Assembly: GCF_003390395.1 (NCBI RefSeq)
Contig: NZ_QUOV01000001.1
Coordinates: 496,001 to 560,000 of the forward strand
From: Thalassotalea euphylliae
GTDB taxonomy: Bacteria > Pseudomonadota > Gammaproteobacteria > Enterobacterales > Alteromonadaceae
Direction: 5' to 3'
Length of the DNA: 64,000 nucleotides
Of this stretch, positions 42 through 4,177 are shown one piece after another. The notes beneath the pieces were generated by a model. That model was given only the letters and a program-made list of their open reading frames with translations. It was not told the DNA's origin and did not search any database. The stretch's first letter is position 1. Each line of letters begins with the position of its first letter. The position numbers and the translations under genes are program-made.

Positions 42-58
42 CTGGCACAACCTTTGTA
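42..58 (+). promoter_or_regulatory. sigma54-type -24/-12 promoter
   Basis: The sequence CTGGCACAACCTTTGTA matches the RpoN consensus YTGGCACGRNNNTTGCW at the -24 block. The -12 block is TTTGTA, so GC is replaced by GT. The GG (44-45) and the -12 G (56) have the required spacing. Predicted transcription start is near 68-70, about 68 bases ahead of the ATG at 137. The promoter ahead of the pspA operon (2200-2216) has the same architecture and the same TTGTA variant, which supports both. Activator sites are not visible because the window starts at base 1. Confidence 0.6.
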
Positions 59-136
59 AAGGTAAATGCAACTTAACTAATAACGCAGTCGTTAGTTAAC
101 TTTTTACTTAAACAAATGGATATATTGGAGCCGAAC

Positions 137-418
137 ATGAAATCACTAACCACTACCTTAGCAGCCGTCAGTTTATTATTTGGTGCGAGCGCATTTGCGA
201 CAGAAAACAATAACGCCGAGCAACTAGCTGCTGAGCTGATTAAGCAACAAAATGCACAAGTCAGTGAAACGGTTGCTAAGCAAGTAAACCAAGACATTCA
301 GTTTACGCTACGAGCAATGCAGTTACCTGTAGTTGAATTAAACGACAGCATGCTGGCGAAGGCTGAGCAGGGCAAAGTGCCAAGCACAGCAGCTAGCAAC
401 GCTAAATTCGCTGAATAG
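137..418 (+). CDS. small secreted protein, paralogue-like of the pspA-operon leader protein
   Basis: This 93-aa product begins with a clear Sec signal peptide (hydrophobic LAAVSLLFGASAFA, predicted cleavage about residue 21). The remainder is a short, polar, Gln/Asn-rich helical chain with no recognised domain. The start at 137 was preferred over an in-frame ATG at 116 because the signal peptide begins here. The mature start (EQLAAELIKQQNAQVSE...) resembles the protein at 2276-2590 (EQAITQFVVAQGKQVVA...) in spacing and composition, so the two look like distant paralogues. A sigma54-type promoter lies upstream and a membrane microprotein gene follows 18 bases downstream. Function unknown; a periplasmic role in envelope stress is an inference from this context. 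Confidence 0.7.
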   Translation: MKSLTTTLAAVSLLFGASAFATENNNAEQLAAELIKQQNAQVSETVAKQVNQDIQFTLRAMQLPVVELNDSMLAKAEQGKVPSTAASNAKFAE

Positions 419-436
419 TCACGCAGGTAATTGCCT

Positions 437-601
437 ATGTTTAGTTTAGCTACACTGTTTGCAATCATGATGGCACCAGCCATTGCAGCCTTGATGACAT
501 CATTAGTTGTAAGACTATTTGAACAACGCACATTTGAGCAAAAGTTTGATACCGAACGCAGTTTGTTTCGGTCAGACTTGGCAAAATCTGAAGTAAGCTA
601 G
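437..601 (+). CDS. 54-aa membrane microprotein
   Basis: A short reading frame follows the secreted protein gene after 18 bases, with an AGG-type ribosome site about 10 bases ahead. The product has one hydrophobic segment (about residues 4-26, containing MMAPAIAALM) and then a charged, helical tail with Arg, Lys, Glu and Asp. The layout of membrane segment then basic tail, including the MxPxIA pattern, resembles the 39-aa microprotein of the pspA operon at 3297-3416. The secreted-protein plus microprotein pair therefore seems to occur at two loci. No family was recognised. It could be spurious, but length, position and composition argue that it is expressed. Confidence 0.5.
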   Translation: MFSLATLFAIMMAPAIAALMTSLVVRLFEQRTFEQKFDTERSLFRSDLAKSEVS

Positions 602-846
602 AATAAGGTATGTTTGTTACCTATTGGCAGCCTACCTTATTTAGCGCTTTTTTTATTGGTTTTGCTTAATGTAATTCGCCCTCATTTTTCCATTTGGTAT
701 CGTTCATCGCCTCCTAGGCAAACCCTCTATAAAACTCATTAGTTAATTTCTAACCAGCTTAGACACTTTATTACAGTATATTCGCCTGTACACTTTGGAA
801 TAATTCGACTAGTTTGAAGTCAGTATTTTCCTATCTTCTGTTTATC

Positions 847-1692
847 ATGCATAGCAACACGCCATTGATCAGTGTTCACCAATTAAAATCAAAATTAAAC
901 CAACAAAATCTGCTTATTCTTGATGCCAGTATGCCGCCTGTCGTGCCGCAAGAACGACCTCAAAATTGCTGGCCTAACACCATCATTCCCAATGCTAAAC
1001 GTATGGATATTGAGCAAGACTTTTGTGACCAATCAGCGAGTTTTCCGCACACCTTACCTTCTCCACAAGCATTTGAGGCGGCGATTCGCCAGCTTGGGAT
1101 AAATGGTGATGAGCATATCGTTGTTTATGATGATTTAGGGTTATTCTCTGCCGCACGTGCATGGTGGATGTTAACGTCGATGGGACATGAAAATGTGAGT
1201 GTGCTTGATGGTGGCTTGCCGGCATGGTTAGCAGCGGGTTTGCCCAGTGAAAAAGCGAATACTAATGGCATCGCCAAAGGTGAGTTTACGAGCCGTTTTA
1301 ATGCATCGATGTTTGTTAATTATCAGCAGGTAGCGACGTACTTGGCGGATAAAAGTCATGTGATACTTGATGCGAGAGCTAGTGCTCGCTTTTTAGGACA
1401 AACTCCAGAGCCTAGAGTAGGAGTTCGAAGCGGTCATATGCCAGGGGCGGTTTCGCTGCCCTATGCTCAGTTGATGCGCGATGGATTGCTATTGTCATCA
1501 GATGAGCTATCAAGGGAGTTTAAAGCGTTAAACCCTGATAATTTACCTATGATAACAACCTGTGGTTCGGGTATAACCGCCTGCATTTTGGCGTTAGCTG
1601 CAACGCTCGCTGGCTATCAGGATATTGCTGTTTATGATGGCTCGTGGGCAGAATGGGGCTCATTAACTGGCTTGCCAGTTACACCGGGTTAA
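847..1692 (+). CDS. sseA: 3-mercaptopyruvate sulfurtransferase-like (tandem rhodanese)
   Basis: Two rhodanese domains in tandem are visible. The first (about residues 5-130) includes HIVVYDD and the AARAWWML helix. The second (about 150-278) ends with the active-site loop CGSGITA, whose Cys239 would carry the persulfide; the CGSG(V/I)TA loop is typical of mercaptopyruvate rather than thiosulfate sulfurtransferases. From the ATG at 847 the protein is 281 aa, the same length as E. coli SseA. The frame is also open to a TTG at 814, but no good ribosome site supports that longer form. Expected role: cytoplasmic transfer of sulfur from 3-mercaptopyruvate to thiols or cyanide. It stands alone between the two sigma54 units. 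Confidence 0.85.
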   Translation: MHSNTPLISVHQLKSKLNQQNLLILDASMPPVVPQERPQNCWPNTIIPNAKRMDIEQDFCDQSASFPHTLPSPQAFEAAIRQLGINGDEHIVVYDDLGLFSAARAWWMLTSMGHENVSVLDGGLPAWLAAGLPSEKANTNGIAKGEFTSRFNASMFVNYQQVATYLADKSHVILDARASARFLGQTPEPRVGVRSGHMPGAVSLPYAQLMRDGLLLSSDELSREFKALNPDNLPMITTCGSGITACILALAATLAGYQDIAVYDGSWAEWGSLTGLPVTPG

Positions 1693-2115
1693 TCGGTTTA
1701 TGTTAGAGCCGAAAACTACAACAGGATAAAGTCCATTTAATGCTGGACAAATTACAGTGCTGTTTTTAACGGAACTTAAGTTTCACATCATCCAACGCTT
1801 AGCCACTTAATTTCATCCATCGTGTAACCACTTCATTGCTTGTCCAATTAACTGTTGCATGCGCCTTTGCGCTAAAACTTCATCAAGGGCTGATCGCTCT
1901 TTCCAAGTGTTGAATTAGCGTCTACTAACTGTGTTGCTATAGCTATCACACTGTTATACGTATCACACGCGCCGATAACGAATTTGCTTTTTATAGATAA
2001 GGGCACCCAGCAAAAGCGGCGGAATAATCTGTTTTGGTTGTTACTTTGGGCTTGTTACTTTTTGGTGATGGTGAATTTCACCAAGCTGGTGGTTAAATAA
2101 ACTAAAATATCGTAT
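1693..2115. other. intergenic region with no recognised gene
   Basis: This stretch between the sulfurtransferase gene and the pspA-operon control region has frequent stops in all frames and no convincing ribosome site. I see no RNA gene, terminator or repeat in it. Confidence 0.5.
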
Positions 2116-2128
2116 GACATATTATGTC
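2116..2128. promoter_or_regulatory. perfect inverted repeat, candidate activator (PspF-like) site
   Basis: GACATA-T-TATGTC is a perfect 6-bp inverted repeat. Its centre lies about 104 bases upstream of the start predicted from the sigma54-type promoter at 2200-2216. Sigma54 activators such as PspF bind roughly 80-130 bases upstream, so the position fits an enhancer. Assignment to PspF is inference; no pspF gene is in the window. Confidence 0.3.
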
Positions 2129-2199
2129 TTGATTGTGGTGCTTTCTGTAGTGATTTAATAAAACCCTTAATAATCAGCTGGATAAAAAATATTTAAGGA

Positions 2200-2216
2200 T
2201 TGGCATATCACTTGTA
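2200..2216 (+). promoter_or_regulatory. sigma54-type promoter of the pspA operon
   Basis: TTGGCATATCACTTGTA fits the -24/-12 consensus, with GG at 2202-2203 and the -12 G at 2214 at the correct spacing. The -12 element is TTGTA, as in the promoter at 42-58. Predicted start is near 2226, about 50 bases before the first gene. Known psp operons are transcribed by sigma54 with PspF, which agrees with the downstream PspA gene. Confidence 0.65.
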
Positions 2217-2275
2217 ATAACTAATACAAACGCAGCATGGGCTGCTGATTAAATTAGCTTAAAAAGGAAAGTGAG

Positions 2276-2590
2276 ATGAACAAGTTAAAAACAATTTTAG
2301 TTGGTTCAGTAATGTCGATGTCTTTACTGGCGGTAACCGCAAATACAGCACAAGCCGCTGAAGTATCAACTGAACAAGCCATTACTCAGTTTGTTGTAGC
2401 ACAAGGAAAACAAGTGGTTGCTAGTTTAGGAGAGCAGTTACAAACGTCTATCGCTGACTCAATTGCTGAAAGTATCGCTGAGTTTTCAATTGATGAAAGC
2501 TTTACTTGGTCAACCGATGAAGCGGAGGTTGCAGACGCAACTGATGAAGCTGACAGTGAGCCAAAAACAGAATCTAGTGAAGAAGAATAG
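2276..2590 (+). CDS. small secreted acidic protein heading the pspA operon
   Basis: The 104-aa product has a Sec signal peptide (MNKLKTILVGSVMSMSLLAV..., cleavage near ANTAQA, residue 27-28), a central amphipathic helical part, and a strongly acidic tail rich in Asp, Glu and Ser from about residue 80. AAAAGGAAAG lies just ahead of the start. It is first in an operon with pspA only 11 bases downstream. No family was recognised. Its N-terminal mature segment resembles the product of 137-418. A periplasmic partner of the phage-shock response is a reasonable inference from position only. Confidence 0.75.
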   Translation: MNKLKTILVGSVMSMSLLAVTANTAQAAEVSTEQAITQFVVAQGKQVVASLGEQLQTSIADSIAESIAEFSIDESFTWSTDEAEVADATDEADSEPKTESSEEE

Positions 2591-2601
2591 GAGATTACCT
2601 C

Positions 2602-3267
2602 ATGGGAATGTTTACACGATTTGCAGACATCATTAATGCCAACATTAACAGTATGTTAGATAAGGCCGAACAGCCTGAGAAAATGATCCGTTTGATCATT
2701 CAAGAAATGGAAGAGACCTTGGTTGAGGTGAGATCTACTGCGGCGAAACATATTGCTGAGCAGAAAACCATTAACCGCCAGGTGGCATCATTGGAAAAGA
2801 GCGCAGCAAGCTGGCAAGAAAAAGCAGAGCTAGCGATTAGCAAAGGCCGCGATGACCTCGCCAAAAGTGCCTTAGCTGAGAAGCACAAAGTGAAACAGCA
2901 AATGGTGACCTTACAAGAAGAAGCCGACAAGTTGGAAGAGTTCTTAGCCAGTGTGCAAGAAGATGGTCAACGATTACAAACCAAACTTGCAGAGGCTAAG
3001 CGCCGCCAAGAAGCGTTGTTGTTACGCCAAGAGTCAGCAGAAGTTCGATTAAAAGTGCGTGAAAAGTCAACGCAATACAATATTGACGAAGCGATTAACC
3101 GATTTGAGCGCTATCAACAAAAAATTGAGCGTGTAGAAGCGGAAGTAGAGGCCTACGACATGACCCAAAATCAAGATTTGGACAGTCAATTTAGAGCCTT
3201 AGAAAATGACGATAACATTGACCAAGAACTCGCGACATTGAAGCAGAAAGTGAGTAATGCCGCTTGA
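2602..3267 (+). CDS. pspA: phage shock protein A (PspA/IM30 family)
   Basis: The 221-aa protein is almost entirely helical coiled coil and opens with MGMFTRFADIINANINSML, closely matching the amphipathic membrane-binding helix of E. coli PspA (222 aa). The conserved stretch MIRLIIQEMEETLVEVRS follows. PspA binds stressed inner membranes as large oligomers and, in known systems, restrains the sigma54 activator PspF. A good AGGAG ribosome site precedes the ATG. It is co-transcribed with the secreted protein upstream and with the membrane genes downstream. The family assignment is secure; the regulatory loop in this organism is inferred. Confidence 0.95.
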   Translation: MGMFTRFADIINANINSMLDKAEQPEKMIRLIIQEMEETLVEVRSTAAKHIAEQKTINRQVASLEKSAASWQEKAELAISKGRDDLAKSALAEKHKVKQQMVTLQEEADKLEEFLASVQEDGQRLQTKLAEAKRRQEALLLRQESAEVRLKVREKSTQYNIDEAINRFERYQQKIERVEAEVEAYDMTQNQDLDSQFRALENDDNIDQELATLKQKVSNAA

Positions 3268-3296
3268 ACTAAATCAAGTGAAAAGGATACGGGAAC

Positions 3297-3416
3297 ATGG
3301 ACGTTGATTTGATGTTTATATTGATGTGTTTAATGCCAGTTATCGCTTTTGCTATTGCTGGCCTGATCATCAACATCACCCGTAAATACCGTTATCGCAA
3401 GTTTATTAATAAGTGA
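3297..3416 (+). CDS. 39-aa membrane microprotein at the pspB position
   Basis: A short frame with GGGA ahead of its ATG encodes one transmembrane segment (about residues 4-26) followed by a strongly basic tail (TRKYRYRKFINK). It lies between pspA and pspC, where enterobacteria carry pspB, but it is about half the length of PspB and lacks the following coiled-coil region. I therefore do not call it pspB. Its stop lies 8 bases before the pspC start, so it is in the operon. Resemblance to the 54-aa product at 437-601 suggests a family of microproteins. Confidence 0.6.
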   Translation: MDVDLMFILMCLMPVIAFAIAGLIINITRKYRYRKFINK

Positions 3417-3424
3417 GAAAGACC

Positions 3425-3637
3425 ATGAGTTACAAGCCAAGTTATTTAACCCGAAAGCAGCTAACGAAGGATGTTCTTCATAAAAAAGTGTCAGGGGTTT
3501 GCGCAGGTATTGCCCGCTATTATCAATGGCCGCGCTGGGGTATTCGCGTAGCAGCCATCCTAGCATTACTCACTTTTCCTGTGGCAACGGGCGTTGCTTA
3601 CCTAGTAGCTGCAATGTTACTGCCGACCAGAGCTTAA
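3425..3637 (+). CDS. pspC: PspC-domain protein, short form
   Basis: The 70-aa product contains the PspC core: a basic N-terminus, the KKVSGVCAGIARYY motif, a Trp-Arg turn (WPRWGIRVAAIL) and a second hydrophobic segment ending VAYLVAAMLLP. Enterobacterial PspC is longer (about 119 aa) and has a C-terminal soluble part that is absent here. The ATG at 3425 was chosen over a GTG at 3413 because the latter overlaps the upstream stop. It is an inner-membrane protein of the phage-shock response that would sense or relay membrane stress to PspA. Confidence 0.85.
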   Translation: MSYKPSYLTRKQLTKDVLHKKVSGVCAGIARYYQWPRWGIRVAAILALLTFPVATGVAYLVAAMLLPTRA

Positions 3638-3835
3638 GCTAGTTTAAATAGCTTATGAATAAGGGAATATAAAAAGGCTAGGTTAAAACGCACTAGAAAA
3701 TTAGCTAAACAAGGACGTTGAGCTTAAAAGCTACATAGCTAATAAAACACATAGTCAAAAAAATCACACAGTCAAAAAACCATAGTGCCAAAAGGCCATT
3801 TACACCAGAGCGCAAGGGGATATAAGGAAACCATC

Positions 3836-4177
3836 ATGTCATTTTTCAAATCGTTATTACTCGCTATTCTTGCCACTTTATTTTTAACTTACGTGTTGGG
3901 CATCAGTATTCTCGATTTGTTTGATGTTGATGTTTATATGGGTGATGAGCTCATTGAACCGTTAAAAGCGATCAGCTTTGCTGCTTTAGTTGCGGTTGTC
4001 TTAGTGATTGTTGCCATGGCAATCGTGTTGACGGTATTTGGCTCGATCTTATTTGTTGGTTTACTTGTTGTTGGTGCATTGGGGTTAGCGGCGATTGGCG
4101 TGTTTTGGCCGGTATTAGTCGTTGCCTTTATTTTGTGGTTAGTACTAAGGGAGCCAAAGAAGGCACCAGTGAACTAA
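3836..4177 (+). CDS. multi-pass membrane protein at the end of the psp operon
   Basis: The start at 3836 has AAGGAAACC ahead of it; the longer frame from a GTG at 3785 has no comparable site. The 113-aa product has an N-terminal hydrophobic helix, a short acidic stretch (LDLFDVDVYMGDE) and then two or three long hydrophobic segments rich in Val, Leu, Ile and Gly, ending in a short basic tail. No family was recognised. About 200 bases of AT-rich sequence separate it from pspC, so it may have its own promoter. A role in envelope homeostasis is inferred from position only. Confidence 0.7.
   Translation: MSFFKSLLLAILATLFLTYVLGISILDLFDVDVYMGDELIEPLKAISFAALVAVVLVIVAMAIVLTVFGSILFVGLLVVGALGLAAIGVFWPVLVVAFILWLVLREPKKAPVN

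Follow-up and report, generated by a model that had tools for sequence, protein, structure and literature searches.

Two adjacent gene units in a 64,000-nucleotide stretch of the Thalassotalea euphylliae genome (hereafter the window; C1:496001-560000 of the 4.36-Mb genome G000) very probably belong to the sigma54-dependent regulon of PspF, the activator of the phage shock protein (Psp) response, and together they would make up an expanded version of the enterobacterial dusA-pspG locus. Unit 1 consists of a gene for a small protein of exported type (sec1) and a gene for a membrane microprotein (mic1); unit 2 carries a second such pair (sec2 and mic2) together with pspA2, pspC2 and memD. From 5' to 3' the order is dusA, the unit 1 promoter, sec1, mic1, a rhodanese gene, the unit 2 promoter, sec2, pspA2, mic2, pspC2 and memD. 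The dusA gene itself lies just 5' of the window (in L002) and was named after E. coli dusA, to which its product is similar (60.8% over 232 amino acids), and the classical pspF and pspABC genes are found 2.46 Mb from the locus. The original prediction, made from the sequence of the window, took the two loci for one envelope-stress regulon, and the presence of in-phase PspF-type enhancers, conserved across genera, argues for this view.

Promoters and PspF-type enhancers

Both units are preceded by -24/-12 promoters of the sigma54 type with equal spacing between GG and GT, as had been predicted (Table 1). The TTGTA form of the -12 element, which was then regarded as unusual, is ordinary in psp promoters and occurs in those of E. 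coli pspA (TTGGCACGCAAATTGTA) and pspG (TTGGCATGATTCTTGTA).

In relatives, the intergenic regions between classical pspF and pspA have a palindrome in common, TRGT-N8-CYAA, some 110 bases 5' of the promoter, which is often accompanied by another at about 90 bases. We trained a 16-base enhancer matrix on the 122 bases preceding the promoter in 27 of these regions: of 34 loci with divergent pspF, four were dropped because they were copies or had an unclear promoter and three because they were near-identical, and the classical region of the window genome is one of the 27. A first motif obtained from the intergenic regions corresponded to the 5' end of the pspF coding region and was discarded. For unit 1 the enhancer is TGGTGAATTTTACTAA (16.3 bits); it falls 5' of the window, at L002:9930-9945 (G000:C1:495930-495945), at a distance of 112 bases from the first base of the promoter 17-mer. 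Unit 2 has two sites, the first of which was equalled in none of 200 shuffles. The enhancers of both units stand at the classical spacing from their promoters. When applied to E. coli, which is outside the training set, the matrix scores pspA at 17.4 bits and pspG at 17.8 bits, and both promoters are described as PspF targets in that organism (PMC3709507).

This arrangement recurs in related loci. The best site reaches at least 14 bits in 37 of 43 promoters, compared with 0.4% of 8,600 dinucleotide shuffles, and it lies 100-140 bases upstream in 42 of the 43 (23% of shuffles), the exception being a site inside dusA. In a count of 75 promoters from 41 related loci, which omits seven classical or pspF-linked loci, the near-copies L088 and L089, L093, L151-L154 and two sites inside dusA, 73 promoters score 9 bits or more and 64 score 12 or more; the best site falls at -116 to -107 in 41 cases and at -136 to -127 in 28. 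Within the T. euphylliae genome we scanned 326 kb (about 7% of the genome), comprising the whole window, the preceding 10 kb, and loci centred on activators and promoter-like words. Among 945 distinct sigma54-like sites in these stretches, four have an in-phase site of at least 12 bits, and these belong to the classical pspA (a training member), unit 1, unit 2, and a gene for a secreted Sel1-like protein.

The unit 1 promoter is also conserved as a word. The 16-mer TGGCACAACCTTTGTA has 22 exact occurrences, distributed over 16 of 60 genomes, and with one mismatch allowed it is found at 31 places, against 7 for a reversed control word. Spacers of sigma54 promoters are usually variable, and that of unit 2 does vary; the unit 1 spacer, AACCT, is fixed and identical in many genera. 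The Sel1-like protein mentioned above has 177 amino acids and matches PF08238 at 24.9 bits, under the cut-off of 30.7 (gene at L204:1296-1826, minus strand). Its gene is preceded by the exact unit 1 word at G000:C1:86875-86890 (minus strand) and by a PspF-type site of 12.9 bits. The exact word stands before the Sel1-like gene in five of the seven genomes of the genus, with sites of 12.9, 12.9, 15.1, 19.8 and 9.3 bits, and the gene is likely to be a further member of the regulon.

Sigma54 promoters alone do not give the identity of the activator, and a search with the PspF-type activator model gives, besides short fragments, 13 strong hits in the genome, 12 of them under the PspF cut-off. It is conceivable that the units are sigma54-dependent but respond to another enhancer-binding protein, that a related DNA-binding domain accounts for the likeness of the enhancers, and that the units stand outside the Psp response. 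We consider this very unlikely, because the enhancers match those of the classical pspA in motif, in distance and often in the double-site layout, as well as those of E. coli pspA and pspG, and because the cargo of the units includes pspA2, pspC2 and a PspG-like gene. The pspF gene of the window genome (C1:2953498) scores 559 bits against a cut-off of 443.55, and pspF is above the cut-off in all 36 of 36 genomes of the family. We infer that both units would depend on PspF in the cell.

The small exported proteins and the microproteins

Both Sec proteins begin with a segment that resembles a signal peptide, as judged by visual inspection and an AxA-type rule, and are thus predicted to be exported. 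The original prediction described them as short exported proteins with similar mature N-termini. We compared profiles of 10 unit 1 and 26 unit 2 sequences with the signal peptides removed and obtained a score of 27.9 (78% probability), the best of 60 column shuffles being 14.6. After trimming of gappy columns the score was 23.4 (60%), which was reached by none of 60 plain shuffles (best 12.9) and none of 60 heptad-preserving ones (best 15.5). Twelve more distant unit 1 proteins score 21.8 and 26.8 against the two sets, and sec2 of the window matches sec genes of the unit 1 type in L079 (E = 0.004) and L082 (E = 0.001). The likeness exceeds composition in these shuffle-controlled alignments, which supports homology of Sec1 and Sec2 after the signal peptide.

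The microproteins carry the predicted M-x-P-x-I-A segment in both Mic1 and Mic2. The mic1 family follows the pattern M...P....L..S..V...E, with M1, P14 and S22 invariant in 21 sequences. Profiles of mic1 (26 sequences) and mic2 (9 sequences) score 25.6 (89% probability), compared with 21.2 for the best of 80 shuffles that preserve hydrophobic class and at most 14.8 for decoy membrane helices, and homology of Mic1 and Mic2 is likewise supported. The profile alignments therefore detected homology in both pairs and not a likeness of composition only.

It could still be argued that the resemblance within each pair is convergent, reflecting the composition of helices and membrane helices in units that were assembled independently and share promoters alone; the sequences are short, the profile probabilities are moderate, and helix periodicity can inflate scores. 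This appears unlikely given that the members of each pair align collinearly, sec starting at the mature N-terminus and mic at residue 1, that neither the heptad-keeping nor the hydrophobic-class shuffles nor the decoys reach the scores, and that sec2 matches the sec genes of L079 and L082.

Matches to sec1 were found in 9 of the 60 genomes and matches to sec2 in 15, in each case including all seven genomes of the genus. Several more distant genera (L077, L079-L082) carry, between dusA and pspA2, a sec gene that has a promoter to itself; pspA2 there is likewise under a separate promoter, with no sec2, which suggests that sec2 is a later addition. Unit 1 is present twice in G033, and G020 has two tandem sec genes. 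In ten Colwellia/Litorilituus loci (L133, L134, L136-L138, L141, L142, L144, L147, L155) mic1 stands under the promoter without sec1; the retention of mic where sec has been lost points to a core role for the microprotein. The search for the pair away from pspA that the original prediction called for did find it apart from pspA2. In G034, which has a single PspA, the order is dusA, two enhancer sites, promoter, sec and mic; in G024 the pair has no recognisable enhancer and no dusA. The sec proteins of both genomes show weak sequence homology to the sec family. In G007 the arrangement is dusA, promoter and mic alone, 31 kb from pspA2. In G054, from another family (L084, G054:C2), dusA is followed by two sec units, both having an enhancer and a promoter, and by a gene with a PspC domain (25.8 bits, cut-off 25), and no PspA match was found on that contig.

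Peptide/immunity systems commonly pair a gene for a small exported protein with a following gene for a small membrane protein, and Sec1 matches the bacteriocin-type model NF053514 at E = 0.15. Read in that way, the pair would be a secreted peptide, either microcin-like or a signal, with a membrane partner for immunity or export, placed on a borrowed psp promoter. We regard this as highly improbable: the match reaches 12.3 bits, far under the cut-off of 40, the pair is stable beside dusA in many genera, mic is strongly conserved and stays after the loss of sec1, and one sec copy sits within the pspA2 operon.

The structural model of Sec2 contains one helix of 38 residues (residues 32-69), with the acidic tail poorly predicted and a mean predicted local distance difference test (pLDDT) score of 61. 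The idea that Sec is an amphipathic helix was not upheld for Sec2, as its moment was matched in 16% of shuffles (4% for Sec1). Scans of individual sec, mic and memD proteins against Pfam and NCBIfam gave sub-threshold chance matches only; the best match of the sec family was to YmgD, obtained by 1 of 43 members (E = 0.001). Among solved structures none resembled the sec family, the sole match (E = 0.026) lying over the signal peptide region. Two sec-like matches, in G017:C12 (within a 627-amino acid frame) and in G022:C7 (within a 476-amino acid frame), were taken as chance. No account of the sec or mic families was found in the open literature, as far as its text is accessible.

Gene content and comparison with the dusA-pspG locus

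Table 1. Features of units 1 and 2, with positions in the window.
Feature	Position	Strand	Description
sigma54 -24/-12 promoter, unit 1	42..58	+	CTGGCACAACCTTTGTA
sec1	137..418	+	93 aa (amino acids); small exported-type protein: signal peptide and short helix-forming mature part
mic1	437..601	+	54 aa; single-helix membrane microprotein
PspF-type enhancer, first site, unit 2	2069..2084	+	TGGTGAATTTCACCAA; 21.0 bits; 131 bases 5' of the promoter 17-mer
PspF-type enhancer, second site, unit 2	2090..2105	+	TGGTTAAATAAACTAA; 13.4 bits (14.7 one base upstream register); 21 bases past the first site
sigma54 -24/-12 promoter, unit 2	2200..2216	+	TTGGCATATCACTTGTA
sec2	2276..2590	+	104 aa; small exported-type protein, sec1 paralogue, acidic tail
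pspA2	2602..3267	+	221 aa; second PspA in the genome; TIGR02977 276.8 bits, cut-off 242.95
mic2	3297..3416	+	39 aa; membrane microprotein, mic1 paralogue; sits where the classical operon has pspB
pspC2	3425..3637	+	70 aa; short PspC, barely beyond the PspC domain; PF04024 54.7 bits, cut-off 25
memD	3836..4177	+	113 aa; membrane protein; C-terminal part PspG-like

The known targets of PspF in E. coli are pspA-E and pspG (PMC9239133, PMC2763126). The locus described here resembles that regulon in its TTGTA sigma54 promoters, in the equal enhancer motif, and in the presence of PspA, PspC and a PspG-like gene by dusA. It differs by having a second PspA operon, a short PspC, a microprotein in the place of PspB, and small exported proteins.

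The likeness of memD to PspG (PF09583) is confined to its C-terminal part, of which 64 columns align with PspG. The profile score is 35.1 (88%), against 22.4 for the best of 60 class-preserving shuffles, with only four PspG sequences in the comparison. The memD model is an all-helical membrane protein (mean pLDDT 85) which, in contrast to PspG, carries an additional helix at the N-terminus and a small hairpin. None of 27 memD members matches PF09583 at E 0.1, and a PF09583 profile search gave no match in G000 and none in the 36 genomes of the family. In E. coli pspG follows dusA, and dusA stands beside three of the four PspG loci found in other families; the memD locus also adjoins dusA and is under a PspF-type promoter. 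The whole looks like an enlarged counterpart of the enterobacterial dusA-pspG locus, with seven psp-type genes at the dusA-linked site compared with one (pspG) in E. coli. Because memD itself fails the PspG model, this reading is built on the synteny and the memD profile. The dusA synteny hints at the origin or the fate of pspG.

The position of mic2 between pspA2 and pspC2 recalls PspB. The likeness is weak and limited to the membrane segment (profile score 19.0, 39.6% probability), and mic2 differs in having 39 amino acids and no coiled-coil part; it has no PspB family match in Pfam or NCBIfam. A relationship of mic1 to PspB was rejected (score 12.2, 2.9% probability). PspC2 scores 47.5 against the full-length equivalog TIGR02978, under the cut-off of 104; the domain is present and the full-length PspC is not.

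The window genome encodes three PF04012 proteins, pspA2 among them. The third PspA-family gene (G000:C1:3334274-3334960, 134.6 bits) has no in-phase PspF-type site within L087. The gene between the two units, at 850-1692, encodes a rhodanese of the mercaptopyruvate-sulfurtransferase-like type (233.7 bits, cut-off 250). A rhodanese gene lies between the units in several other genomes as well, and there was no rhodanese match at the G002 and G004 loci. The terminal gene of the E. coli psp operon, pspE, is another rhodanese, which may be more than coincidence.

Several points weigh against the placement of both units in the PspF regulon and in an enlarged dusA-pspG locus. Two of the 75 promoters are under 9 bits (L138 unit 1, 4.4; L149, 6.5), the site of the Sel1-like gene is barely over the threshold, and the free-standing pair of G024 has no enhancer site of at least 9 bits. 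The stretches scanned in the window genome were selected for regulators and promoter-like words and cover a small part of it. The conservation concerns one family, and some of it is due to shared descent. Finally, the sec and mic proteins are short, their profile probabilities are modest (59-89%), and the Sec2 helix is not clearly amphipathic.

A proposed role in the Psp response

PspA is described as holding PspF, which membrane stress sets free (PMC3709507, PMC9239133). In the mechanism that we propose, inner-membrane stress would release PspF from PspA, and PspF, encoded 2.46 Mb away, would bind the TGGTnAATTTnACCAA enhancers, which stand some 110 and 130 bases 5' of the promoters. It would then induce pspABC of the classical locus and, at the same time, unit 1 (sec1, mic1) and unit 2 (sec2, pspA2, mic2, pspC2, memD). 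PspA2, PspC2 and the PspG-like MemD would work within the inner membrane and on its cytoplasmic side, Mic1 and Mic2 would be single-helix proteins of that membrane, and the exported Sec1 and Sec2 would add a component of the response across the membrane. Sec and Mic would act jointly and have a protective role. The sec-mic pair is probably an old duplicated unit, one copy of which now encloses pspA2.

It is possible, though we offer this tentatively, that in this family the Psp response includes an arm reaching across the membrane, in which the exported Sec and single-helix Mic proteins form a two-part unit under PspF, cooperating with PspA2 from the periplasm and also serving as a stand-alone effector where there is no second PspA. 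Sec and Mic may even be the missing stress sensor that reports outside damage to PspA2 and PspC2. The original prediction saw new Psp components in the exported proteins and microproteins; this holds as far as predicted regulon membership and synteny go.

Variable pspA neighborhoods and PspA paralogues in differing contexts, such as those seen here, were reported by Ravi et al. 2024 (PMC11237479); among the Psp partners in the accessible part of that paper we found no PspF-controlled small exported protein or single-helix microprotein. The sensing step and the effectors of the Psp stress response are still debated. Two unnamed families, one of small exported proteins and one of microproteins, share the psp control element across many marine genera, and this makes sec and mic testable new members of the stress response. 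The enhancer motif and its spacing would provide a simple rule for locating members of the Psp regulon beyond enterobacteria.

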